NCBI GenBank assembly: GCA_029268085.1
Contig: JAJUHD010000003.1
Location: 1 to 33,381, forward strand
DNA length: 33,381 bases
Direction of reading: 5' to 3'
Origin: Bacillota bacterium
Lineage (GTDB): Bacteria; Bacillota; Clostridia; Oscillospirales; Oscillospiraceae
Positions 18,645 through 33,381 of the stretch are shown piece after piece; within the stretch, counting starts at the first letter, position 1; the number at the start of each line of letters is the position of its first letter. The position numbers and the translations under genes are program-made. The notes under the pieces are model-generated. The model did no database searches. It saw only the letters and a program-made list of their open reading frames with translations, and had not been told where the DNA came from.

Positions 18645-18737
18645 GGAGAAGTCGCGTAGTTTGGTCGAGCGCGCACGATTGGAAATCGTGTAACGGTCAA
18701 AAGCCGTTCGAGGGTTCGAATCCCTCCTTCTCCGCCA
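18645..18737 (+). tRNA. tRNA-Ser (anticodon GGA), CCA encoded
   Basis: Acceptor GGAGAAG/CTTCTCC, anticodon stem-loop CGATTGGAAATCG, variable arm, T-arm GAGGGTTCGAATCCCTC, discriminator G and CCA. Confidence 0.96.
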
Positions 18738-18740
18738 AAA

Positions 18741-18779
18741 AAACCTTGTAGTCTGATGACTGCAAGGTTTTTCTTTTTT
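18741..18779 (+). terminator. Intrinsic terminator after tRNA-Ser
   Basis: AACCTTGTAGTC-TGAT-GACTGCAAGGTT followed by a T-rich tract. Confidence 0.85.
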
Positions 18780-18818
18780 TACTTATTAGCTGGCTTGATA
18801 TAATAAATAGGGCCGATG

Positions 18819-19253
18819 TTATCTTCTTCTACAGGAAATACATAAAATCATTGCTATAAAGGAAAACAACATGGTCCAAAAAGCTATTGAACCGATAAAA
18901 GCTAATATGGCTCTATCTATAAACGGGAAATAGGTTGCCAGAACGATCAGGGAAAAAACGATGAAAACAGCGGCAGCTATCAGAACTAGCGAAGAATACT
19001 TGCATACGCTCAAACAGGTACAGTCTATATGACATCCTTCTGCCGCAGATCTTAGGGAACACCCGCATTTTGCCTTCAGAATCGCCGTAACGACAAAAAG
19101 GACAATTGCAAAAACAAGAGCAAACGGAAGCATCTCTCTTACATACCGAACATATTGAGCTTCAAAATACCATACCAAGGCGGCTGCAACACCGAATAAA
19201 AGGCCGAGAAAAACCAATAAGCCGTTGGAAACGCATTCTCTTTTTCCACACAT
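18819..19253 (-). CDS. Small cysteine-rich four-TM membrane protein, unknown function
   Basis: 144 aa, four hydrophobic segments, 10 Cys; strong SD (TAAGGAGGTGTTATT) before ATG at 19253. Confidence 0.7.
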   Translation of the reverse strand: MCGKRECVSNGLLVFLGLLFGVAAALVWYFEAQYVRYVREMLPFALVFAIVLFVVTAILKAKCGCSLRSAAEGCHIDCTCLSVCKYSSLVLIAAAVFIVFSLIVLATYFPFIDRAILAFIGSIAFWTMLFSFIAMILCISCRRR

Positions 19254-19520
19254 AATAACACCTCCTTAACTGCGAACTGGTCCTCACCTATATACAATAT
19301 ATGCGAACCATAAGAAAATGTTTTGCCTTAATATGCCGGCGTTTCCGGGTTGCCTTGATATAATTGCGGCTATTTTTCTCTTTTGAAAGCACTTATAGAA
19401 CTTTTGATTTGGTTGGAGTTCTCATTGTCAGCATTTCTGAGGCTTGCATATATTGGAAGTGATAAAATCAGTGCGCTTTTCTTCATAAGAAGGCTTTGAA
19501 TTTGGGGGGATACGACCGGC

Positions 19521-21425
19521 ATGTACAGAGCTTTTTTCAAAAGATTATTGGATATTGTTTTGTCCATTTGCGGTACAATTGCGCTTTTGCCGGTGTTTCT
19601 GATTATAATGGCTGCGATCATTATCGATGATCCGGGGCCTGTGTTTTTTGTTCAAAAAAGGATCGGTATCCATAAAACCTGTTTTAATATTATAAAATTC
19701 CGAACCATGAAGATAAGTACGCCAAAGAATATTCCCACGCACCTGCTGGAGGATCCTGAAAGGTACATAACCGGATTTGGCAAGTATCTGCGCAGAAGCA
19801 GCTTGGACGAGTTGCCGCAAATTATGCAGATACTGACGGGGAAAATGAGCATAATAGGGCCTCGCCCCGCTCTTTGGAACCAGTATGATCTGATTGAAGA
19901 GAGAGACAAATATGGCGCCAACGATATAATGCCGGGGCTGACCGGCTGGGCACAGGTCAATGGAAGGGACGAAATTTCCATTGTTGATAAAGCGCGCTTG
20001 GATGGCGAATATGCAAAAAATATTAGCTTTTTATTGGATGTCAAGTGCTTCTGGCTTACGATCGTTAAGGTCCTTAGGCGTGAAAATGTTGTGGAGGGGA
20101 AGACAAAGGCTGAGTTGTCAGCAATCGAGGCAAGCAACCGACACATGAACATCTGGATATTCAATAATTATAATATGCTGCCAGAGCATGGCGCATTGAA
20201 CAGAAGCTATTACCTTGGCAGATATCTTAAAAAAATGGATCACAAACCGGTTGTATTCGCAGGCAGCCATCCGCATAATACCGACTTGCAGCTCATCGAA
20301 GGAAGAGAAAAATTCAAAGAAATCCATGACAGCGAATTTCCCTGGGTGCTTGTAAGAACCTGCAACTATGAAGGAAGCAGGCTTAAAAGAATATACTCAA
20401 TGTTTGAATACTATTTTAATCTAAGAAAAGCGGTGGGTTATTATGAGAAACCCGATGTAATAATCGGATCTTCCGCTCACCCTCTGGCAGCGATTGCAGC
20501 AATTAAACTATCTAAAAAATATGGGTGTAAAGGCATCGTCGAAATTCGAGACCTTTGGCCTGAAAGCTTTGCTGCATATAGAATAATCAGCAGGAAAAAT
20601 CCCTTGCTGAATCTGCTGTATGGCGGTGAGAAATGGATATACAAAAAAGCCGATGCGCTGATTTTTACAATGGAGGGCGGCAAAGATTACATAATCAGCA
20701 AAGGCTGGGACAAAGCACACGGCGGACCAGTTGAGCTGAGTAAAGTATTTCATATTAATAACGGTGTGGATCTGGAGGAATTCGAAGCCAGCCGGTCAAG
20801 GGACGACTATCAGGATACGGACTTAAACAATGCCGATATTTTTAAAGTTGTTTACACCGGCTCTATTCGCTTGGCTAATCAGGTGCAGGAGCTGGTCAAT
20901 GTTGCAAAAATATTGAGAAACAGACATGCGGATAACGTGAAAATCCTTATTTGGGGCACGGGAGACCAGTTCGGGAAAATAGACCGTTTAATAAAGGAGG
21001 AAGCACTAATAAATATTGTGCTTAAAGGTCCCGTTCCGAAAGCCTTGATTCCGCAAATCTTATCAAAAAGTGATCTTAATATCTACTTGCTGGCCAAAAC
21101 GCCGCTTCTTGATTATGGCCTTAGCCTAAATAAATCTTTCGAGTACTTCGCTTCGGGAAAGCCGGTAATAGCCAGTTCCAATTCCGGATATTCAATAATT
21201 GACAAGTATAAATGCGGCAGGTGTCTTGATAGCTTTACCCCAGAGGCAATGGCGGATGAGATAATACGTTTTTCCAATATGCCTAAGGAAGAATATCGCG
21301 CTTACTGCGAAAACTCAATGCGCGCCGCGCATGATTATGATTATAAAACGCTTGCTGAAAAGCTGCTTGAGGTAATTGAAAAACAGCGGCGCCCTTCAAA
21401 GCAATGCCTTACTGAAAAGGGGTAA
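19521..21425 (+). CDS. Fusion: monotopic phosphoglycosyl transferase (bacterial sugar transferase) + GT4-like glycosyltransferase
   Basis: N-term FFKRLLDIVLSICG...KFRTMK...RRSSLDELPQ...IIGPRPAL...PGLTGWAQVNGRD; C-term MNIWIFNNYNMLPEHGALNRSYYLGR...VYTGSI...LNKSFEYFASGKPVIAS. Confidence 0.88.
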   Translation: MYRAFFKRLLDIVLSICGTIALLPVFLIIMAAIIIDDPGPVFFVQKRIGIHKTCFNIIKFRTMKISTPKNIPTHLLEDPERYITGFGKYLRRSSLDELPQIMQILTGKMSIIGPRPALWNQYDLIEERDKYGANDIMPGLTGWAQVNGRDEISIVDKARLDGEYAKNISFLLDVKCFWLTIVKVLRRENVVEGKTKAELSAIEASNRHMNIWIFNNYNMLPEHGALNRSYYLGRYLKKMDHKPVVFAGSHPHNTDLQLIEGREKFKEIHDSEFPWVLVRTCNYEGSRLKRIYSMFEYYFNLRKAVGYYEKPDVIIGSSAHPLAAIAAIKLSKKYGCKGIVEIRDLWPESFAAYRIISRKNPLLNLLYGGEKWIYKKADALIFTMEGGKDYIISKGWDKAHGGPVELSKVFHINNGVDLEEFEASRSRDDYQDTDLNNADIFKVVYTGSIRLANQVQELVNVAKILRNRHADNVKILIWGTGDQFGKIDRLIKEEALINIVLKGPVPKALIPQILSKSDLNIYLLAKTPLLDYGLSLNKSFEYFASGKPVIASSNSGYSIIDKYKCGRCLDSFTPEAMADEIIRFSNMPKEEYRAYCENSMRAAHDYDYKTLAEKLLEVIEKQRRPSKQCLTEKG

Positions 21426-21429
21426 TGCT

Positions 21430-22596
21430 ATGGCTTTATTGCTTATAAAAATCGCACATATGTTCCAAAGAAAGAAAAACCCTTTGTTTTCCGCAGATAT
21501 AGGGGTTCAGCAGAAATATATGAGAAAGCTGGGCATACCGGGAGACAATATTGAGCGCGGGTATTTTCAATACCGATGCCAGATGCGGCTTTTGGGCTGT
21601 ATTTTAGCTTTTTTATATAACCTGACATCGATTCCTTTGATGTTTCTATATAAAAAAAGAATAGCGCGCGCGCAGGCCCCGAACTCCGATGATGTCTTCG
21701 ACGGTATCTTTATATTTGCAGGAGCCGATACGATACTTCCATTGAGCCTGAAGGAAAAATACAGCATCAAGCAGGTAAAGGACTGTCAGAGCCAGCAGCT
21801 TCTAATAAAAGAAGATATCCTGTTCCTGAACACTTTGCGGAAACGATATCCATTCGCGTGGCATTTCCGCTTTAAGTGCCTTATGAAAATTGCTATGTAC
21901 CGCTATCAGATCATGGCATATCGGCCCACAGCTTTAATCGTCAGCTCTGAATACTCTTTCACATCCTCTGTTTTAACTGCGTACTGCGAGGGCATGGGGA
22001 TTAAGCATATAAATGTGATGCATGGCGAGAAGCTTTTCTATATGCGTGATTCGTTTTTTCATTTTCATGAATGCTATGTGTGGGATGAGCATTACAGAAA
22101 ATTGTTTACAGATTTACAGGCAGAGCCGACGCAGTTCATAATCGACGTTCCGCCCTCTTTAGCGAAGCGGGAAAATTCCAATGTTCCTAAAACCGTTGAT
22201 TATACATACTATTTAGGTACAGAAAAAATCAGGGAAATGAAGCAAATAAAACGCTCGCTTGATTTGCTGGTTAAATCAGGAGGTATGGTTGCTATCCGGC
22301 CGCATCCGCTTTACTCATCCGCCCGTGATATCCAAAGTGTTTTTGGCGTCGATTCCAATTACATTATTGAGGATAAAAGCATTTTGCCCATAGAAATCTC
22401 CCTGCTGAGGACCCGATACGCAGTTTCCTGTTATTCTACAGTGCTGTTCCAAGCCATAAACAATGGCGTTACTGCCGTGATAGACGATACGGATAAGGAA
22501 AAATACAAAAAGCTGAAGAGCTTGCGATATATTTGCTTGGAGAAGGAGCACATGATTTTATCGGATCTGATAAATAAAACTATGAATAAGGAATAA
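21430..22596 (+). CDS. Putative GT-B-like glycosyltransferase/capsule biosynthesis protein, family unassigned
   Basis: ATG at 21430; LIVSSEYSF, INVMHGEKLF, GMVAIRPHPLYSS and late SCYSTVLFQAINNGVTAV, reminiscent of polysialyl-/sialyltransferase-type GT-B folds. Confidence 0.5.
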   Translation: MALLLIKIAHMFQRKKNPLFSADIGVQQKYMRKLGIPGDNIERGYFQYRCQMRLLGCILAFLYNLTSIPLMFLYKKRIARAQAPNSDDVFDGIFIFAGADTILPLSLKEKYSIKQVKDCQSQQLLIKEDILFLNTLRKRYPFAWHFRFKCLMKIAMYRYQIMAYRPTALIVSSEYSFTSSVLTAYCEGMGIKHINVMHGEKLFYMRDSFFHFHECYVWDEHYRKLFTDLQAEPTQFIIDVPPSLAKRENSNVPKTVDYTYYLGTEKIREMKQIKRSLDLLVKSGGMVAIRPHPLYSSARDIQSVFGVDSNYIIEDKSILPIEISLLRTRYAVSCYSTVLFQAINNGVTAVIDDTDKEKYKKLKSLRYICLEKEHMILSDLINKTMNKE

Positions 22597-22612: not shown

Positions 22613-24379
22613 ATGGGTTTTGTAATTTCAAACAGGAAATTTGAAGGCGCTGAGGAATTTGAAAAGCTGTATTTTGACGGTTCGGACGTTATAACGTCAA
22701 ATGCAAGTTTGATCGCGGTTAAAACAAACGTTTTTGGTAAAAAACGCCGCGAGATAATTGATAATGTATTGGAACAAACGTCAAGCGACTCAACAATTGG
22801 CATTCTAAGCAAAGACGAGTTCTATGTTGCGCTTAGCTATAAAATCAATTCTGATATATTGAAAATACAAACTGATATTGTGGCGTATGAATCGGCGTTT
22901 ATTTATCGCTCCGGCGATTGCTTCGTTATTTCGGACAATGTGCTGAGAATAATTGAAATTCTTCAGTCTTTTGGCATTACTGTGGCGTTACTGGAAGACA
23001 AAGTCAGGAAGTTTGTTTATCTTGGAAATTACTTTACGTCTGAAACATTTTTTTCAGATATCTCAATATTACAGCCGGCAACAAATTATTTTTTAAATAT
23101 ATATAATTTGGAACTGCAATCTTCAGCTTATGATGATTTTTCCTTTTCGGGTAAAATCACCGATGCGGATGAAGCGGCGTCGCGTCTTTATTCTGTGCTC
23201 GATGAGTTATTTAAATCGAATTACTCAAAGGACATGAAATACGGCATAGGGATCAGCGGCGGGCTTGACTCGAGGGTCGCGGGCTATTTTGCAAAAAAGA
23301 ACGGATATAACGTTTATCCGTATTTCCTTGGCAGAAAACGAAACTCTTTGGGTTTCCTTACCAACGATGCCAAGCGAAGCCTTGAGGTCATTCATGAAAT
23401 CGGACTGAACGAACCAAGTTTTTATCCGACGGACATAGTACCTTATTCCAAAAAGCTCGAATATGATGCTGTGAAAGCTCCAACCGGCTCTCCGAACGTG
23501 ACACAAAACATCGGGTTTGATTGGCCGTATTTTGATGTGATGATACATGGAATGCTGGGCGGAGAGCTTTTTGGCGGAATCGGTTTTCTCAATAAAAATA
23601 ATATGGATTGTACATCCGAGGAGCTTTCGGCAAGTATTATCGCTACTTTGAATTGCTTGCCGAAATATAAAGCCAAGTATTCGCTTTCAGGAAAAATTAT
23701 AACAAAGCTTCCAAAAATTAGAGATAAGTATAGATTTACTGATTATGAAAAGGAGCGCATTATTTCTGAGCGCCTTCGGACAGAGCTTAAATCGGAATTA
23801 TGCGAATGGATAGAGCGGCAAAATGCAAACGGACTTTCCAATATAAATATCGCGATGAAATTCTTTTATTACTATTATTCAAGAAATGTTAGAACTGCAT
23901 ATTACGCAACTTTGGAGGACAGCATTTACTCGTTTGGAGCGTTCTTGAACCCGAAGGTAATATCGGAATTCCGCAATTGGAGCGATGGGCTGTTTTTAAA
24001 CAGAGTTGTCCAAAAGGCTTTAATTAAAAAATGCGGGAATTTATGCAGCGTTAGGGACCAAACGACTGCCGCTTCAATTTCAGAAAGCGAGTCAGGCCGA
24101 TCAATCAGAAAATATGCTTATATGCTTGAACGTGCCTTGCGAGGCAGCGGAATGTACTATACAAATTATGACAAAAAGGAATTTGCTTCTCAGCTTCAAG
24201 AATTAAATCAGCAAAAAATAATCAGAATGTTCGACTGCGATTTTGTTGAATTGTCTGAGGCAAAAGCAGATGTCTGCCACTTGATTATGAAGCTTGCATG
24301 GCTGGAAAAACGCTATAATCTGCCGGTAGCGGATGGTGATTATGAGGATTCTAATTTTATCTCCATATATCAGCGATAA
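22613..24379 (+). CDS. Asparagine synthase-related protein lacking the catalytic glutaminase Cys
   Basis: 588 aa; PPi-loop GIGISGGLDSRVAGY; N-terminus MGFVISNRKF has no Cys2. Confidence 0.75.
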   Translation: MGFVISNRKFEGAEEFEKLYFDGSDVITSNASLIAVKTNVFGKKRREIIDNVLEQTSSDSTIGILSKDEFYVALSYKINSDILKIQTDIVAYESAFIYRSGDCFVISDNVLRIIEILQSFGITVALLEDKVRKFVYLGNYFTSETFFSDISILQPATNYFLNIYNLELQSSAYDDFSFSGKITDADEAASRLYSVLDELFKSNYSKDMKYGIGISGGLDSRVAGYFAKKNGYNVYPYFLGRKRNSLGFLTNDAKRSLEVIHEIGLNEPSFYPTDIVPYSKKLEYDAVKAPTGSPNVTQNIGFDWPYFDVMIHGMLGGELFGGIGFLNKNNMDCTSEELSASIIATLNCLPKYKAKYSLSGKIITKLPKIRDKYRFTDYEKERIISERLRTELKSELCEWIERQNANGLSNINIAMKFFYYYYSRNVRTAYYATLEDSIYSFGAFLNPKVISEFRNWSDGLFLNRVVQKALIKKCGNLCSVRDQTTAASISESESGRSIRKYAYMLERALRGSGMYYTNYDKKEFASQLQELNQQKIIRMFDCDFVELSEAKADVCHLIMKLAWLEKRYNLPVADGDYEDSNFISIYQR

Positions 24380-25574
24380 TAATGAGCATAAAAAAAACAA
24401 AACCGGGTTCGGCATAATGGTTATGAGCATTGTTGATTCTTTGTGCGATCGGGGGAGTGAAGTATTTGTCCTGACGCATGCTCTATGTCGGGGAAGAACA
24501 GACGGGTTGCGCGTGATTCTTAAGCACTCGCTTTCGGAAGTGCTCCTGCATGCTCAAATCAGAGGGATATGCGCCCAAATTTCAGAACTGCGTAAGCTGC
24601 CGTGCCCATTTGGAACAAAACTCAGAATGCTTTATTATTACCTTGATAAAGGCTTTATAAAAAAAGCTATTCAAAGGATAAAGCCTGACATAGTCCATGT
24701 TCACGGCTTAGGTCTTGGTTCAAAAAATTATATCGATGCCTGTGAAGAACTTGAGGTTCCGTTTGTGGTAACGGCGCATGGCCTGATTCAAAACGACCAG
24801 GACGCTTCTCAGGAGGACCGAGAATTTGAAAGAGAGTTTTTTCGCTATAGCGAAAAAAATGGAGTTCATATAACGGTTGTCAGTACGGGCATAAAGAAAC
24901 GCCTATGTGGAGATTACTATGGTCTTGCCGACGCCGGCACTATTCACGTTGTAACAAACGGAACAGATTTACATATGATAAAACCGACAGGCACTATAAG
25001 GTCAAGGTACGGCATCCCGCCGACAAGCAAAATTTGCTTGGTCGTCGGAAGCGTTTGTGAAAGGAAAAATCAGATTCAAATCGTTAGGGCATACTCGAGA
25101 CTGCCGCAAAGCTTGCGTGAAAACACAAGGATACTGATCCTCGGAAGCATATCGGAAAATGATCCGGTCAAAGAGGAAATCTCAAGATTGGGTTTGAATA
25201 ACTCTGTTATATGCTGCGGATTCGTTCAGCACGAGGAACTCTGCAGCTATTACGCCGATGCAGACCTGAACATACTTGCAAGCAGGGACGAGGGCTTTGG
25301 CCTGCCGGTTATCGAAGGCTTTGTTTACGGATTGCCTTGCGTAACTTTTTCAGATCTTGACGCAGTTCCGGATATTTACGACGAAAATGCGGTAGAGTTG
25401 TGTTATGACCGCACAGACGAGTCTTTCGCAAAGACGATAACAGCCGCATTGGAAAGGCAATGGGACAAAGAAGCGATAAAGCTTTACAGCAAAAAGTTTT
25501 CGCTTGAGACTATGGCGGAACGGTATATGGATGTATATGCACAGGTAATAAACAGTTTGATATTTAATAAATAA
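24342..25574 (+). CDS. GT4 family glycosyltransferase
   Basis: MRILILSPYISDNNEHKK, VHVHGLGL, LVVGSVCERKNQ, EGFGLPVIEGFVYGLPCVTFSD; overlaps the upstream CDS. Confidence 0.88.
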   Translation: MRILILSPYISDNNEHKKNKTGFGIMVMSIVDSLCDRGSEVFVLTHALCRGRTDGLRVILKHSLSEVLLHAQIRGICAQISELRKLPCPFGTKLRMLYYYLDKGFIKKAIQRIKPDIVHVHGLGLGSKNYIDACEELEVPFVVTAHGLIQNDQDASQEDREFEREFFRYSEKNGVHITVVSTGIKKRLCGDYYGLADAGTIHVVTNGTDLHMIKPTGTIRSRYGIPPTSKICLVVGSVCERKNQIQIVRAYSRLPQSLRENTRILILGSISENDPVKEEISRLGLNNSVICCGFVQHEELCSYYADADLNILASRDEGFGLPVIEGFVYGLPCVTFSDLDAVPDIYDENAVELCYDRTDESFAKTITAALERQWDKEAIKLYSKKFSLETMAERYMDVYAQVINSLIFNK

Positions 25575-25592
25575 TGGGTATTGGAGAGAGCA

Positions 25593-26996
25593 ATGAACGG
25601 AAGGCTTACCTCGACGCATCTTAAAGGCCGTACCAATAGAAGTGTAGTCAGGATACGCTGCGACATGGTGATCGCTTTGGCTTCAACGTTTTTCGTGGGA
25701 CTGTCTGCTGTCACTAACAACGCGGTTTTCTGCTATATTGCGATGCTCTTTTTGCCTTTTGGACTTATTTATCCGACGTCGCTTATACCGGTACTTATGG
25801 TTACGTCTCTTTCGAGTAACTTTTTCGCTGCGGCAGAAGGGATTGGGGCTGCACGCCTGTTCGCTATTGCCATAGTACTCGGCGTTACAATATCTATGAT
25901 TCGAAATCGCAGAAAGATCAATCTTTTTTGGCTGCGTTTTCTTATATTAATCATGATAGCGACTTTGCTTACCACGGCAATAAACGGAGCTGTCAATATG
26001 CAAGCCTTGTCAACGATCGGCCTGAACCTATTGATCGCTTTTGCGTTTTCAAATATTAAGATCGACTCAAAAGAATTCGAAAGAATTCTTTTTTGCGTTT
26101 TTGCGGCGTTTTCTATAATTACTATACTAATTTTTATAAATTTGAGTTTTTCGGGGCTTCAAACCCTTTTTCAGGGTCGTATATCCATCGATTCCGATGT
26201 CAATACAAACCGTCAGGCAATGATGTGCGCGCAGCTTGGCGCATTTATGTTTGGCTATGCTGTTTACTCTCCAAAAACGAAGTATAAAGTGTTCTGCATT
26301 ATATTGGGACTCATTAACTTTTTTGTATGCCTGATTTCCGGCTCAAGAACCGGTTGTTTAGCGGTAATACTGGGCGTGATGGTATCCGTTATTGTTTTTA
26401 ATCGTATTAACAAAAAAAGCCTTAAGGGAATTGCGACAGTGGCATCAATCACGGTAATCGGTTTTTTGATTTTTCAGCTTGTTGTCGGCAAAAACGCAAT
26501 CCTTGCGGAGAGATATTCACTGCAGGGCATTTTGAAAAATGGCGGTACTTACCGATGGGAAAGAATAATCTGCGAAGTAAAATATATAATCCCGGAACAC
26601 CTGCTGTTCGGTATAGGACCTTCTTCAATATATGAAACACTGGCGCTGCGGCCGTATTTAGCTAAGCCCGGCTCGTCGCACAATATCATTTTCAGTATGC
26701 TGACGCAGATCGGCATATTGGGAAGCGCCGCATATGTTGCGGTTGTCAGTTCTGCTATCAGGAGGATTATTGCCGCGCTGAGAAGATTTCCCGCTGCTTT
26801 AATTCCGCTTTCCATGATTCTGACCGGCCTGTTTAACGGCATAGGAGAAGTGATGTATTGCGAACGTTTATTCTGGATGGTGCTTTCTTTTTCGATTCTT
26901 TGCATAAACAGCCGACCGTTTGAGGCGGACAGTGCAGACCGGTCAGAGAAATCCGCTTCAGAACATAGGAGGTATCTATGCCAGAGGTATCGATAA
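25593..26996 (+). CDS. O-antigen ligase / Wzy-like polysaccharide polymerase
   Basis: Polytopic; SGSRTGCLAVILGVMVSV and large loop with GIGPSSIYETLALRPYLAKPGSSHNIIFSMLTQIGILG. ATG at 25593 preferred to TTG at 25581. Confidence 0.82.
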   Translation: MNGRLTSTHLKGRTNRSVVRIRCDMVIALASTFFVGLSAVTNNAVFCYIAMLFLPFGLIYPTSLIPVLMVTSLSSNFFAAAEGIGAARLFAIAIVLGVTISMIRNRRKINLFWLRFLILIMIATLLTTAINGAVNMQALSTIGLNLLIAFAFSNIKIDSKEFERILFCVFAAFSIITILIFINLSFSGLQTLFQGRISIDSDVNTNRQAMMCAQLGAFMFGYAVYSPKTKYKVFCIILGLINFFVCLISGSRTGCLAVILGVMVSVIVFNRINKKSLKGIATVASITVIGFLIFQLVVGKNAILAERYSLQGILKNGGTYRWERIICEVKYIIPEHLLFGIGPSSIYETLALRPYLAKPGSSHNIIFSMLTQIGILGSAAYVAVVSSAIRRIIAALRRFPAALIPLSMILTGLFNGIGEVMYCERLFWMVLSFSILCINSRPFEADSADRSEKSASEHRRYLCQRYR

Positions 26997-29089
26997 TTAT
27001 ACCAGTATATAATGTTGAACTATATCTGCGGCATTGTCTGGACTCGGTACTCGCCCAGACATTCCGGGATATTGAAGCGATACTGGTGGATGACGGCTCC
27101 ACGGACGACAGCGGGAAAATATGCGATGAGTACGCTGAAAAAGACGCGCGGTTCAGAGTGGTTCATCAGGAAAACGCAGGGCTTTCTGGAGCACGAAATA
27201 CGGGCATTGAAAAAGCCCGCGGAAGCTATCTCTATTTTTTAGATTCTGATGACTGGGTTGAAAGGGATACTGTTGAAAAACTGTATGAAGGGGTAGCCGG
27301 AAGCGGCGGCCAGTATGCCGTTTGCGGCTACTATAAAGAAGCAAAGCCCAGAGGATACTTTTCTCCGCAAATGAGGCCGGAAGCCGATAACCGCTTGGGT
27401 AATTTACTTCGCTATGCAAGAAAAGAATTCTCTTACGCGGTGTGGAACAAACTGTACAGGCGCAGTATTGTTATTGAGAACAACCTTCGGTTCTATGAAG
27501 GAGAAAAGTATGTAGAAGACCATGCGTTTAATCTTAAATACCTTCTCTTCTGCGAAAAAGTCTCGGTAATACGGGCCCCGCTGTATCATTACAGAATAAG
27601 AGAGGGGCAGATAACAGCGGAAAGCCCCGAAAAGAGACTTCCGACTTACATAGAGGACACAAAAAAACTAATTGAAGATTTCAAGTCATACGGGAAATAC
27701 GAGGAGTACAAAGAGGTGTTGGCGGTTCATTTTGCTGCACGCTTTAACGAATACATAGGCGGGCTTGCGAAGGATAAATTTCTCTGCAAACCAAAATCAT
27801 TGCTTATAAAAGAAATAAAAAACCTATACAGAGAAACAGGCTTTTCAAAAGTATTAAAGCATGCGCCGCTAATAAAAAAGGAAAGGTTATTTCTGGCATT
27901 GCTGGGGCAGGGAAATGCAGGGGCAATAATCGGATGCTACCGCCTGTACGCTTTACTGCGAAGAGTGATGAGCCTATGGGGCAAAACAAAATATTGCCTG
28001 CGCGAGAAAATCAAAGATTTGGTTCTCTACAGGTCGATTTGGTTAAAGAGAAATTACCTCCGATATATCCAAAAGGATAATGATACCAATTTTTTGTCTG
28101 ATCAAAGCCTCAAAATCGGTACAAAGCCGCGTTTGTTTTTAATAGGTACGCCTGAATATGAAAATGTTGGTGATCACGCAATAGCCGTTGCCGAAAAACA
28201 GTATTTGGGCAAAGAGCTTGCTGATTACTCTCTGATTGAGGTTACCGAAAACGAGGCCGTCTTACATTTGCGAGAATTGAAAAAATATATTCAATCCACA
28301 GACATAATTCTGCTTCAGGGCGGAGGAAATATGGGGAGCGAATACCCCGATCAGGAAATGATAAGAAAACATGTAATCAAAGCGTTTCCGGATAACAAAA
28401 CAGTTGTATTTCCGCAGTCTGTGTTTTTTTCCGATAAACCGATAAATCATTTTAGAAAGAAAGAAATGCGCAGTTATTACTCCGGTCATATTAATTTGCT
28501 TCTTTGCGCGAGAGAAAGACGCTCGTATGAAATAATGCTGGAAAACTTTGAGGAATGCAAAATTGCGCTTATGCCGGATATGGCGTTTCGCTTGCAAAGC
28601 GCTGCTAAAGCATCTAAACGCAACGGCGTCCTGATATGCCTTCGGTCTGATAAAGAGAGCATCTTGTCATGGGATGATAAGGCTAAGATAAACTGCATTT
28701 GCAGGCAGAGGTTTAATAATGTTTCAGAGTCTGACACATGCATAGATTATCGGGTCAAAAAGGAAAACAGAGAAAAAATACTGGATCAGATTGTCATGCG
28801 GTTTAGGTCGTCCGAGCTGGTGGTAACGGACAGATTGCACGGCATGATTCTTGCGGCCGTTACGGAAACGCCCTGTGTGGCTTTCAGCAATTCAAACCAT
28901 AAAATTGTAGAGAGCTTTGAATGGATCAAAGGCCTTGGATTCGTAAGGCTTTGCGATAATTTGGAGAGACTCGGAGATTTAATAAGCGCAGCACTCTCGT
29001 GTGCTGCCGAATATGACCGTACGGCATTTGACGAGTATTATGACGCAATTACGCTGTTTATACGGGAGAATTCAAATGGACAGAATTAA
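26978..29089 (+). CDS. Fusion: GT2 glycosyltransferase + polysaccharide pyruvyl transferase family domain (PF04230-like)
   Basis: N-term VSIIIPVYNVELYLRHCLDSVLAQT, LVDDGSTDDSG, YFLDSDDWV; C-term LQGGGNMGSEYPD, VVFPQSVFF, CARERRSYEI, VVTDRLHGMILAA. Confidence 0.88.
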   Translation: MPEVSIIIPVYNVELYLRHCLDSVLAQTFRDIEAILVDDGSTDDSGKICDEYAEKDARFRVVHQENAGLSGARNTGIEKARGSYLYFLDSDDWVERDTVEKLYEGVAGSGGQYAVCGYYKEAKPRGYFSPQMRPEADNRLGNLLRYARKEFSYAVWNKLYRRSIVIENNLRFYEGEKYVEDHAFNLKYLLFCEKVSVIRAPLYHYRIREGQITAESPEKRLPTYIEDTKKLIEDFKSYGKYEEYKEVLAVHFAARFNEYIGGLAKDKFLCKPKSLLIKEIKNLYRETGFSKVLKHAPLIKKERLFLALLGQGNAGAIIGCYRLYALLRRVMSLWGKTKYCLREKIKDLVLYRSIWLKRNYLRYIQKDNDTNFLSDQSLKIGTKPRLFLIGTPEYENVGDHAIAVAEKQYLGKELADYSLIEVTENEAVLHLRELKKYIQSTDIILLQGGGNMGSEYPDQEMIRKHVIKAFPDNKTVVFPQSVFFSDKPINHFRKKEMRSYYSGHINLLLCARERRSYEIMLENFEECKIALMPDMAFRLQSAAKASKRNGVLICLRSDKESILSWDDKAKINCICRQRFNNVSESDTCIDYRVKKENREKILDQIVMRFRSSELVVTDRLHGMILAAVTETPCVAFSNSNHKIVESFEWIKGLGFVRLCDNLERLGDLISAALSCAAEYDRTAFDEYYDAITLFIRENSNGQN

Positions 29090-31163
29090 GAGGTTTTTTG
29101 ATGTCTATGTGCCGGTAAAGAGCTGCAACCTTAAATGCCATTATTGCTATGTAACGGAGGATGCCAAGTCAAAAATGGGGGACACCGCATTTGAATATAC
29201 ACCTGAGCAAATCGGGCGGGCTCTAGCCATAGAACGGTTGGGAGGCAAATGCCTGTTCCATATTTGCGGATACGGAGAAACCCTGATTCCTCCCGAAATA
29301 GCGGAAATAATTAAAGAAATACTGAAACAGGGACATTATGTTTTTGTTGTAACGAACGGACTTATATCAAAGAGGATAGATCAGATACTTGAGTTTCCGC
29401 AGGAATATCTGACGCGGCTTGGTTTTAAGTTCTCTTTCCACTACCTGGAGCTGCTGAGGACCAATCAGCTCGAAAAATTTACATACAACGTTAGCAGAGT
29501 CAGAACTGCGGGATGTTCGATATCTGTCGAGGTAACGCCAAGTGACGAGCTTGAACCCTATATCGACGAAATGAGACGGTACAGCATCGAAAAATTCGGG
29601 GCGCTGCCCCATATTACTGTTCCGCGTAACGGTGATGATCCGTCGTGGCCGCTGCTTTCAAAGCGCTCGCTTCAGGAATTTAAGGATATTTGGGGCCAAT
29701 TTGAATCGGAGCTATTTGATTTCAAGCTGTCCACATGGGGAATAAAGCGGAAGGAATATTGTTATGCCGGCGCATGGTCGGGTCTTCTCAATATAGGCAA
29801 CGGCGAACTGTCGCGCTGTTACGGAGGGAAGTATTCCCAGAATATCCTGAAGGACCCGACCAAGCCGATAATAGACCTGCCGATAGGAAATAAATGTTCA
29901 ATGCCTCATTGTGTCAACTCCCATATATTTCTGACTCTGGGTGATATTCAGAGTATTAATTCATACACATACGCTCAGGTCAGGAACAGAGTATGCGCAG
30001 ACGGAAGCGAATGGCTTCGGGAGCCGATGAAATCATTTATCAGCGGCAGGTTGGAAGATGCAAACGAAATACTGACGGAAAAAAAGAAGAAGCTGCTTGC
30101 ATGGAAAAGCTTCCTGCTGGTTTTGAGGTATCAGCTTTTTAAGAGACTTTATACCCTGTTAAGCAGAAAAATAAGGCTGATACTGGAAAAAAATAAACTG
30201 ATTCCCGCCCCGCGATACTGCTGTTCATTTGGGAGTGTAATCATGCGCCATATTTTCAAAAAGGCAAAGAAAGCGCCAAGGTACGCGAAAGCAAGGATCG
30301 AAAGATGCTACTATACGCTAAGGTACCGGTTTGCAAAAGGCAGTATCTATATAAAAACCGAAAGTATAGAAACAACTATTCAGAAGATCATTGACGAAAA
30401 GGTTTCGGTTTCACGCTTCGGAGACGGAGAATTCAAATGGATCGAAAAACTGCGGCACAACTCCTTTCAGGATGTTGACGAAAAGCTGTCCGAAAGGCTG
30501 CTGGAGGTTCTGAGAAGCGAAAGCGAGCGCCACATAGTATGCATAAGCCCGGCTTTCAGCGGACTTGAGTATGAAACAGAAGAGAGCAAAAAGTACTGGA
30601 GGGCTGTGCTTGGGCAATATGGAAAGCGTTGGGCGAGGCACCTCGATAGGAGCAGAGTTTACTTCAACGCAAATATCAGCCGCTTTTATTTGAATGATAT
30701 CAACAAAGCCTTGGTCAACAGCAGATTTTTACAATTGAAAAAAATATGGGATGGCAGAGATTTGCTTATAGTGGAGGGCGAAATGAGCCGGATGGGAGCA
30801 GGGAACGACCTGTTCGAGAATGCCAGAAGCATTCAGCGGCTTATCGCCCCCAAGCGCAACGCGTTCAGCAGATATGACGCAATTCTTGAAAAAGCAAAGC
30901 GCTACGGGAAAGAGAAGCTGATTCTCATTGCTCTGGGCCCGACCGCCACGGTTCTGGCCTATGATCTGGCAATGTCAGGTTATCAAGCGATCGACTTAGG
31001 CCATGTTGATATCGAATATGAGTGGTATCTGATGGGGGCGACAAAAAAAGTTCCTGTTCGTTGGAGAGAAGTCAATGAAGCAAGGACTGCCAATGAAATA
31101 CCTTTTACCGGCCCTGAACGCGTAAAATATGATTCTCAAATTATAGATGCAGTGCTGCTGTAG
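29076..31163 (+). CDS. Fusion: radical SAM protein with C-terminal Cys-rich region + GT-D-type glycosyltransferase (PF08759/DUF1792-like)
   Basis: ATG at 29076; CNLKCHYC (29124-29147), ICGYGETLIPPEI, later cysteines YCYAGAW...SRCYGG...CSMPHC; C-term VSVSRFGDGEFKWI...RVYFNANISRFYL...LIVEGEMSRMGAGNDLFENARSIQRLIAP. Confidence 0.82.
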   Translation: MDRIKRFFDVYVPVKSCNLKCHYCYVTEDAKSKMGDTAFEYTPEQIGRALAIERLGGKCLFHICGYGETLIPPEIAEIIKEILKQGHYVFVVTNGLISKRIDQILEFPQEYLTRLGFKFSFHYLELLRTNQLEKFTYNVSRVRTAGCSISVEVTPSDELEPYIDEMRRYSIEKFGALPHITVPRNGDDPSWPLLSKRSLQEFKDIWGQFESELFDFKLSTWGIKRKEYCYAGAWSGLLNIGNGELSRCYGGKYSQNILKDPTKPIIDLPIGNKCSMPHCVNSHIFLTLGDIQSINSYTYAQVRNRVCADGSEWLREPMKSFISGRLEDANEILTEKKKKLLAWKSFLLVLRYQLFKRLYTLLSRKIRLILEKNKLIPAPRYCCSFGSVIMRHIFKKAKKAPRYAKARIERCYYTLRYRFAKGSIYIKTESIETTIQKIIDEKVSVSRFGDGEFKWIEKLRHNSFQDVDEKLSERLLEVLRSESERHIVCISPAFSGLEYETEESKKYWRAVLGQYGKRWARHLDRSRVYFNANISRFYLNDINKALVNSRFLQLKKIWDGRDLLIVEGEMSRMGAGNDLFENARSIQRLIAPKRNAFSRYDAILEKAKRYGKEKLILIALGPTATVLAYDLAMSGYQAIDLGHVDIEYEWYLMGATKKVPVRWREVNEARTANEIPFTGPERVKYDSQIIDAVLL

Positions 31164-31185: not shown

Positions 31186-32277
31186 ATGGACACAAGCCTG
31201 ATGCCCCGCAATAATTTTGACTTGCATCAAGATATAAAATCCATACTGGTTTGGGGGGAGCACGCTAAAGAGCCTCCCTTTCTGACTGTTTCAATCCCCG
31301 CATATAAGCGCGGAGGCCTTCTGAAGGAAGCTCTGGAGAGCATACTCCGCCAAAAAGAGAGCCCCTCCTTTGAAATAGTTATATCAGATGATGAACCCTG
31401 CGAAGCCCATGAGGAAACACAAGCTATAAAGATTGTAAAAGAGCTGAATGATCGGCGTATAGTTCTCTATCATAACGAGCGGAACCTTGGCCTGTGCGCA
31501 AACTGGAACCGCAGCGTGTCTTTGGCGAGATCCGAGTACGTTTGCGCGCTTGACGATGACGATTTGCTGGAGGATACATACTTTTCAGAGGCTTACAAAA
31601 TACTTGCCGCCCACCCTGAAATAGATTTGCTCGGAACCAAATGGGCAAAGCTGGACCAGCGGAGCCTATCCCCAAAGAAAAATGGTAAGGATAGATCCTT
31701 GCATTTTTTTGCCGCCTTCGCTCAGAAAGCGGCTGAAAACTCATATGGAAAGCTCACTCCGGTCAATCGCTGGCTGGTTTATCCGCACATTGTCCTCTTG
31801 CTTTCCGGCTCGATAATCCGGAAAGCCTCGGCCTTAGAACTGGGAGGCTTTAATAATGAATGGTTTCCCAGTATGGACTATGCGTTCCTTGCAAATGCGG
31901 CCCGTAATGTCAAGGTCTTTTTATACAATAAGGAATCAGTAATAACAAGGATATTGTCCAATACCAGCGCAAAGCCCGAAAACGTTCGGCGCTGCTGCAT
32001 TTCTGATTTTAAAATACATGAACTTATGAAAAGCTATTATCCGCCATGGCTGAAGCCTTTTATTTCCCTATCAAACAGGGTAATGGTCAGATCCCAGCTT
32101 GACGGTCTCAATTCGTTATGGGAAACTAACGTACCTTATGACGAAATTGCGAGGGAGTTGGGTATCGGAAGCTTCTATTCGTCTTACCTTGCGAAACTGC
32201 TTTTCAAGCTTTTTATGAGAACGTATTCGCTGTACAAACTGCATTATATCAATAAGCATTCCATCGATATCTATTAA
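31186..32277 (+). CDS. GT2 family glycosyltransferase
   Basis: LTVSIPAYKRGGLLKEALESILRQ, IVISDDEP, NRSVSLARSEYVCALDDDDLLE. Confidence 0.87.
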   Translation: MDTSLMPRNNFDLHQDIKSILVWGEHAKEPPFLTVSIPAYKRGGLLKEALESILRQKESPSFEIVISDDEPCEAHEETQAIKIVKELNDRRIVLYHNERNLGLCANWNRSVSLARSEYVCALDDDDLLEDTYFSEAYKILAAHPEIDLLGTKWAKLDQRSLSPKKNGKDRSLHFFAAFAQKAAENSYGKLTPVNRWLVYPHIVLLLSGSIIRKASALELGGFNNEWFPSMDYAFLANAARNVKVFLYNKESVITRILSNTSAKPENVRRCCISDFKIHELMKSYYPPWLKPFISLSNRVMVRSQLDGLNSLWETNVPYDEIARELGIGSFYSSYLAKLLFKLFMRTYSLYKLHYINKHSIDIY

Positions 32278-32299: not shown

Positions 32300-33381
32300 A
32301 TGAACCAAAAGCCTTCCGTAGCGCAAAACGTAATATGGAATTGGGTTCGCGTTTTGATGGGGATTGTATTTCCGTTAATTTCCTTCCCCTATATTTCCAG
32401 AGTCTTGGGACCCGATGGAATCGGAAAAGTCGGTTACATATATTCGATTGTCGGCTATTTTTCTCTTGTTGCCATATTCGGAGTTCCGAATTACGGCATA
32501 AAGGAAGGCGCAAAAGTTCGCGATGATAAGGAGAAGCTCGGCAGATTTGTTACCGAGATGGTGATAATCAACATCGTTACATCTCTTTTATCAACAGCTG
32601 CGTATTTGTGCCTGCTTGCCTTTCCGGCGTTTCAGAATTATAAAGCGCTGATAATTATTATGGCAGGATATATTCCGCTCAGTTCGCTTGGATTGGCGTG
32701 GATATACCAGGTTTTTGAAGATTACCGCAGGATCGCCATACAATCAATATGCATTCAGGCGGCTTCTCTGGCTCTGCTTTTTCTGCTTGTCCGTGATTCT
32801 GATGATTATATCCAATATGCGTTTGTACACGTTTTCTCAAGCGTCGGGTCGAATATCCTTTATCTGATTTCAGCAAGCAGGCGCGTCAAGCTTTTCGGAT
32901 ATGGACACTACGATATAAAAAAGCACCTTAAGCCTGTACTGATACTGTTCGGAATGAGCGCAGCATCGACACTGTATTTGAATTTCGATTTGACTATGCT
33001 GGGAAATATGGTGGGAGACACTTCTGTCGGACTGTATTCCGCAGCGAACAAGGTAACGATTATTGTATCTGCGCTGCTCAATTCTATTTGCGGAGTGATT
33101 CTTGCCAGAATGTCCCGCTATGCCGGTTTGGATCAAAAAGAAAAATTCCGCGATCTTCTGAGAAAGACAATAATATGTATGCTTATGCTGTCGATTCCGG
33201 CAGCTTTAGGCTTAATACTGCTGAGCAGACCAATCATCGTGCTTTTATGCGGAAAGCAATTTTTGGAAGCTGTCCCGGCAATGTGTATATTAAGCGTTAA
33301 CCTTATCATTTCACCGATAAACGGGCTTCTAGCCTATCAGGTGCTCCTTCCGTATAACAGGGAAAGGTATTCCGCAATTGC
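32300..33381 (+). CDS. Wzx-like oligosaccharide flippase, 3' end truncated by the window (absent from the ORF track)
   Basis: AAAAGGAG then ATG at 32300; open to the edge: MNQKPSVAQNVIWNWVRVLMGIVFPLISFPYISRVLGPDGIGKVGYIYSIVGYFSLVAIFGVPNYGIKEGAKVR. Confidence 0.9.
   Translation, partial: MNQKPSVAQNVIWNWVRVLMGIVFPLISFPYISRVLGPDGIGKVGYIYSIVGYFSLVAIFGVPNYGIKEGAKVRDDKEKLGRFVTEMVIINIVTSLLSTAAYLCLLAFPAFQNYKALIIIMAGYIPLSSLGLAWIYQVFEDYRRIAIQSICIQAASLALLFLLVRDSDDYIQYAFVHVFSSVGSNILYLISASRRVKLFGYGHYDIKKHLKPVLILFGMSAASTLYLNFDLTMLGNMVGDTSVGLYSAANKVTIIVSALLNSICGVILARMSRYAGLDQKEKFRDLLRKTIICMLMLSIPAALGLILLSRPIIVLLCGKQFLEAVPAMCILSVNLIISPINGLLAYQVLLPYNRERYSAI

Follow-up and report, generated by a model that had tools for sequence, protein, structure and literature searches.

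A role in tailoring pyruvylated polysaccharide repeat units is inferred for the radical S-adenosylmethionine (SAM) half of a fused protein encoded in a 33,381-nucleotide stretch of an Oscillospiraceae genome (Bacillota bacterium, GenBank assembly GCA_029268085.1, contig JAJUHD010000003.1, positions 1 to 33,381; hereafter the window). The protein (29076..31163; it and the other protein-coding genes and domains described for the window lie on the + strand) is a 695-amino-acid (aa) chain in which a radical SAM and twitch region is joined to a GT-D glycosyltransferase domain. We assign a probability of about 0.58 to the reading that the radical half represents an uncharacterised twitch-type family with this substrate and role; taken by itself, a pyruvylated glycan is the probable substrate. 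The family keeps a conserved partnership, held here with high confidence, with a single Pvg1-like subfamily of polysaccharide pyruvyl transferases (PF04230). The original prediction for this gene was of a bifunctional enzyme with unusual surface-glycan chemistry; that general idea is still the best reading, although the pyruvyl transferase partner was absent from it.

Conserved partnership with a pyruvyl transferase

The gene upstream of the fused gene in the window (26978..29089; Pfam) encodes a GT2 glycosyltransferase fused to a polysaccharide pyruvyl transferase, and its last 14 bases overlap the start of the radical SAM gene. The pyruvyl transferase domain (28163..28897), identified by Pfam, a subfamily profile, and alignment with Pvg1p, is the conserved partner of the radical SAM domain. 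Scanning genomes for matches to the radical half recovered nine good relatives (L002-L010), hosted by Herbinix, Lachnospiraceae, Oscillospiraceae, Clostridiales, a Gastranaerophilales bin, and a rumen bin; Pfam matches of the neighbours place PF04230 beside the radical SAM gene in all nine of these first loci, as well as in the window. The full survey comprises 34 distinct radical SAM genes (L010 is the same as L052, and the frame pieces of L066 and L067 each count once). PF04230 abuts or is fused to 26 of the 34 (23 directly upstream, two directly downstream, one fused), and lies one or two genes away in four more (L053, L058, L063, L067), while two radical SAM genes are at contig ends (L069, L072). 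Because PF04230 accounts for merely 30 of the 386 genes in the surveyed loci, direct adjacency is far above that expected from random gene order. Two tandem pyruvyl transferase/radical SAM pairs occur in one operon at L064 (G730 C2), and at L049 the radical SAM and PF04230 domains form one 794-aa chain.

Across 26 of the surveyed genomes there are 64 PF04230 occurrences, and the partners of the radical enzyme form one subfamily among them. When scored with a profile trained on ten of the linked transferases, linked members reach 116-366 bits, including approximately 20 outside the training set, whereas PF04230 proteins of the same genomes without a radical enzyme score at most 25 bits, save two high scorers on a 3.6-kb contig whose neighbour is out of view (L127). 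Among 397 genomes, the radical SAM enzyme was detected in 16, the partner subfamily in 26, and both in 15 (Fisher p 2e-19, with no correction for kinship). Fifteen of the 16 radical SAM genomes thus encode the partner, the exception being G814, in which the radical gene is frame-broken, and in 11 of the 26 genomes with the partner the radical enzyme is missing. Neighbours of the transferase in those 11 include a stand-alone GT-D (L174), a GT2-GT-D protein with FrhB pieces (L177), FrhB (L183), and often a flippase. The partner is also common on plasmids: 107 records of the plasmid collection, mostly from Lactobacillaceae and relatives, match the window pyruvyl transferase domain, and only two records, both from Lachnospira eligens, match the radical domain. 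The dependence is therefore one-way: transferases without a radical enzyme are found, but a radical enzyme lacking the transferase hardly ever is. Such a pattern is expected if the substrate of the radical enzyme is the product of the transferase.

Predicted activity of the partner transferase

The best solved relative of the partner is Pvg1p of fission yeast (5ax7, E 6e-32 by profile), to which the C-terminal half of the window neighbour gene product aligns. PEP-binding (PEP, phosphoenolpyruvate) and catalytic residues are known for Pvg1p (PMC4872226, PMC10435577). The window transferase retains N103, D106, R217, R337, L338, and H339, which are invariant in 10 aligned members, and has Tyr at the position of H101. 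By these kept residues the partner looks active. It differs from the Pvg1p-type enzymes in being fused to a GT2 domain and in standing beside a radical enzyme. In Bacillus subtilis, pyruvylation by EpsI/EpsO is reported to take place in the cytoplasm, on the lipid-pyrophosphate-linked repeat unit (PMC11447030).

The radical SAM domain

The radical SAM and twitch region comprises residues 1-340 (29076..30095), as delimited by Pfam, family alignments, an AlphaFold 2 (AF2) model, and Foldseek. Exactly seven Cys (17, 21, 24, 229, 248, 274, 279) are invariant in the alignment of 32 full-length radical domains, and this alignment contains no further invariant Cys. Three belong to the CxxxCxxC motif that provides the SAM-cluster ligands (C17, C21, and C24; CNLKCHYC, residues 17-24, 29124..29147). 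The remaining four fall in a putative auxiliary-cluster motif, of which the first half is CX13GX4C (C229, G243, C248; 29760..29819) and the second is CX4C (C274, C279; 29895..29912); since they are invariant in 32 of 32 sequences, they are not there by chance. The first half fits the CX9-15GX4C start of the SPASM/twitch motif (PMC6231123), and the second pair has the spacing CX4C in place of CX2C. The four Cys suggest one putative auxiliary cluster of the twitch type, which may be fully ligated like that of BtrN. The proposal of additional Cys in a SPASM/twitch-like position is thus borne out for twitch; the set is not the seven-cysteine SPASM motif with its two auxiliary clusters, and the window protein has no Pfam match to SPASM. 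No named NCBIfam radical SAM family matches the window protein at its cut-off (best 31 bits vs. 380).

The AF2 model of the radical domain has a predicted local distance difference test score (pLDDT) of 80.5 and a predicted template modelling (TM) score (pTM) of 0.85, and its Foldseek neighbours include SuiB, BlsE, MoaA, SkfB, anSME, DesII, PqqE, and EpeE (TM ~0.4-0.5). BlsE, DesII, and MoaA act on sugar- or nucleotide-like substrates and match at E 1e-7 to 1e-5; they differ from the window family in sequence (12-17% identity) and in their operons, and the auxiliary cluster of MoaA has an open site. The substrates of the top neighbours SuiB, SkfB, and anSME are peptides or proteins, which could be taken to favour a peptide or protein acceptor (SPASM-like chemistry of ribosomally synthesised and post-translationally modified peptides, RiPPs, or of glycoproteins), and the assembly of the Fap1 glycoprotein is known to involve GT-D enzymes. 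Such an acceptor is nevertheless highly improbable. There is no match to a RiPP recognition element or to SPASM, and only four auxiliary Cys are present; moreover, what the loci encode is polysaccharide assembly of the Wzx/Wzy or ABC type, and the neighbours searched included no recognisable precursor peptide gene. The SPASM-type peptide modification allowed for earlier is not indicated.

BtrN, the twitch radical SAM dehydrogenase of butirosin biosynthesis, uses a four-Cys auxiliary cluster in the two-electron oxidation of a carbinol (PMC9012708, PMC6231123). It shares with the window family the CxxxCxxC core, four Cys for a single auxiliary cluster (putative in the window family), and the CX9-15GX4C first half, and a carbohydrate-like substrate would be a further point in common. 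It is also a fold neighbour, although weakly (4m7t, E 1.5e-3, query TM score [TMq] 0.26, 130 columns). The window family differs from BtrN in its CX4C second half, in having no NCBIfam match at cut-off, in its modest fold match, and in its tie to polysaccharide loci and to a pyruvyl transferase. A BtrN-like oxidation is our tentative first choice for the specific chemistry. Alternatively, the enzyme might epimerise a sugar carbon of the lipid-linked unit by radical chemistry, much as NeoN and EpeE do with their own substrates; EpeE is among the fold neighbours, and epimerised sugars are common in capsules. Two clusters would use all seven invariant Cys, and a Cys-donor epimerase is less likely because none is left over as hydrogen donor; another donor residue is possible, and epimerisation as a whole appears decidedly unlikely.

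Proposed role in repeat-unit tailoring

The proposed pathway would begin with a cytoplasmic glycosyltransferase, in the window genome perhaps the fused GT-D domain, adding a sugar to the lipid-linked repeat unit, after which the adjoining Pvg1-like transferase would place pyruvate on the sugar from PEP. The radical SAM domain would then abstract hydrogen from a C-H of the pyruvylated unit via the 5'-deoxyadenosyl radical, with the auxiliary [4Fe-4S] cluster accepting an electron; the simplest outcome would be BtrN-like, with a sugar carbinol oxidised by two electrons. Finally, the unit would be flipped and polymerised by Wzx/Wzy. The substrate, the order of these steps, and the type of reaction are our inference, whereas the domains, the Cys, the partnership, and the one-way dependence were computed here.

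Several observations weigh against repeat-unit tailoring. PF04230 is not near the radical SAM gene in two of the 34 cases (L054, and L066, in which the radical frame is broken). No column of the transferase alignment separates members with a radical enzyme from those without, so that the transferase gives no sign of having adapted to it. Distances in the two families correlate weakly (Mantel r=0.19, p=0.026; one L064 pair is probably mismatched). The fold matches of the radical domain are modest (TM ~0.5), and although four Cys are on hand for an auxiliary cluster, that region is among the least certain of the AF2 model. Lastly, the slot of the radical gene is often fixed, with the transferase on one side and Wzx on the other, and operon habit could explain part of the adjacency. 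On that explanation the radical enzyme would make an unrelated precursor sugar and merely travel with the pyruvyl transferase; the mosaic composition of the loci agrees with this, as do the fixed slot and the weak distance correlation. We consider it quite unlikely as the whole account, in view of the L049 fusion, the tandem pairs of L064, the restriction to a single PF04230 subfamily, and a radical link that was gained or lost at least approximately eight times on the partner tree.

The one-way dependence on the pyruvyl transferase is also compatible with chemistry on the pyruvate group itself. The radical enzyme could open the ketal, leaving a 1-carboxyethyl (lactyl) ether and an oxidised or deoxy sugar carbon; it could also add to an enolpyruvyl ether or reduce one. 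MqnE, itself a radical SAM enzyme, has a carboxyvinyl ether as its substrate, and a vinyl reductase is among the relatives of FrhB. FrhB_FdhB_C (PF04432) occurs 12 times, in nine of the 26 genomes, and in all 12 cases is fused to, or within approximately 1.7 kb of, a PF04230 protein of another branch, suggesting a recurring redox follow-up to pyruvylation. Yet the family scans gave no link to MqnE, the literature searched gave no paper on how 1-carboxyethyl sugars are made and nothing useful on such sugars in Butyrivibrio, and the residues of the partner look like those of an ordinary ketal-forming enzyme. Chemistry on the ketal is the most novel alternative and an unlikely one, ranked behind BtrN-like oxidation.

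FrhB-PF04230 pairs include L119, L120, L121, L131, and L134, among others (genomes G884, G350, G537, G999, and G888). Like the radical enzymes, the FrhB proteins are iron-sulphur (Fe-S) redox proteins beside or fused to pyruvyl transferases, and they occur in the same genomes; they belong to a different protein family, and their partners belong to the other PF04230 branch. Because FrhB pairs with that other branch, and none was found inside the surveyed radical SAM loci, two unrelated Fe-S redox proteins go with two branches of pyruvyl transferase. A broader proposal, also unlikely, is that of a new class of polysaccharide chemistry, in which the radical SAM family would rebuild pyruvyl ketals or their sugar on lipid-linked capsule units, in parallel with the FrhB route, and the window protein would carry the sugar-adding and radical steps on one chain.

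Pyruvylation is a widespread mark of surface sugars. If the radical enzyme depends on the pyruvyl transferase, the capsules of gut Clostridia would carry so far unrecognised modifications, and, if true, the proposed role would provide the first substrate class for an unnamed radical SAM family. The literature library searched contained no paper that joins a radical SAM enzyme with a polysaccharide pyruvyl transferase, and none that accounts for the pairing of radical SAM or FrhB proteins with one.

The fusion and its GT-D half

The fusion of radical SAM and GT-D is real. Positions 29076-31163 contain no internal stop, and the gene, which is present in single copy in its genome, reads identically in the whole-genome copy. 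The possibility that a frame error had joined two genes was rejected: a single open frame runs through, G+C is similar to either side of the junction, and the genome copy matches. Pfam identifies both halves of the predicted protein: Radical_SAM (PF04055) at residues 12-112 (E 4.7e-13, above cut-off) and GT-D (PF08759/DUF1792) at residues 445-668 (E 5.1e-88, 295 bits vs. a cut-off of 27), the latter covering profile positions 1-224 of 225. The fused protein also exceeds the cut-off of NCBIfam TIGR03728 (the SP_1767 GT-D family), and solved GT-D structures (GalT1 4pfx, 5v4a) match the C-terminal half at E 2e-55. The GT-D domain (30360..31160) is thus a clear member of its family, as had been predicted; it is unlike the solved enzymes in being joined to a radical SAM domain. 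The frame could also start further upstream, at GTG 29001 (720 aa), but ATG 29076 is preferred, because relatives begin with MDKIKR... in the alignment. In the full-length AlphaFold model the GT-D half has low confidence for lack of aligned relatives, and is hence uninformative.

Between the two domains lies a strongly basic linker (residues 341-428, net charge +21; 30096..30359), predicted with low confidence to be mostly helical, which may keep the protein at the membrane near lipid-linked units. The GT-D domain probably adds the sugar to be pyruvylated, or the neighbour of that sugar. A role of GT-D as the functional key to the radical enzyme is not supported: among the 34 radical SAM genes surveyed, the window gene alone carries this fusion. 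GT-D as a conserved partner of the radical enzyme was likewise rejected: in the surveyed loci it occurs only in the window, L174, L177, and L066 (approximately 6 kb away), and in L174 and L177 it adjoins the partner transferase without a radical enzyme.

Distribution of the radical SAM family

Relatives of the radical half mostly stand alone (334-382 aa), and where fusions occur the partners vary: GT-D (window), FkbM methyltransferase (L003), GDSL hydrolase (L054), and pyruvyl transferase (L049). Profile searches of whole genomes detected the radical domain in two of 149 relatives, three of 392 genomes of the same class, 16 of 397 of the family of G534, and six of 245 of the family of G350. 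Given so few matches in these searches and among the plasmid records, the family is sparse, patchy, and found mostly in anaerobic Clostridia. L. eligens was found through the plasmid collection; strain ATCC 27750, which is cultured and has a finished genome, carries the radical SAM/pyruvyl transferase pair and makes the question testable by glycan analysis. In this strain (NC_012780) the radical SAM gene is EUBELI_RS11775 and the pyruvyl transferase gene is EUBELI_RS11780.

The pair also occurs among polysaccharide genes on a 5.3-kb faecal record labelled Bacteriophage sp. (L186, MT838384.1), which is probably bacterial DNA. Proteins of approximately 231-250 aa with an H(F/I)SIDD-type start recur near the radical gene (L063:7667-8362, L064:9691-10410, L061:5882-6601, L002:2250-3002); the sole member scanned (L063) had no Pfam match.

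The surrounding polysaccharide locus

The locus composition is mosaic across the surveyed radical SAM loci. In the window, the glycan-assembly setting predicted for the fused gene is evident from Pfam matches to an initiating sugar-phosphate transferase (Bac_transf) fused to GT4 (19521..21425), a GT4 glycosyltransferase (24333..25574), a Wzy-type polymerase/O-antigen ligase-like membrane protein (25581..26996), a GT2 glycosyltransferase (31186..32277), and a Wzx-type flippase cut by the window end (32300..33379). Two further proteins are encoded: one of 406 aa without a Pfam or NCBIfam match (21376-22596), and one of 588 aa with weak asparagine-synthase-like matches (22613-24379; E 1.9e-4). 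The G+C of the locus genes is ~0.39-0.47, compared with 0.52-0.53 for the upstream housekeeping genes checked. Within 18645-21425, the locus starts soon after a tRNA-Ser gene, with lower G+C than the upstream housekeeping genes (~0.43 vs. ~0.53), as acquired DNA often has.

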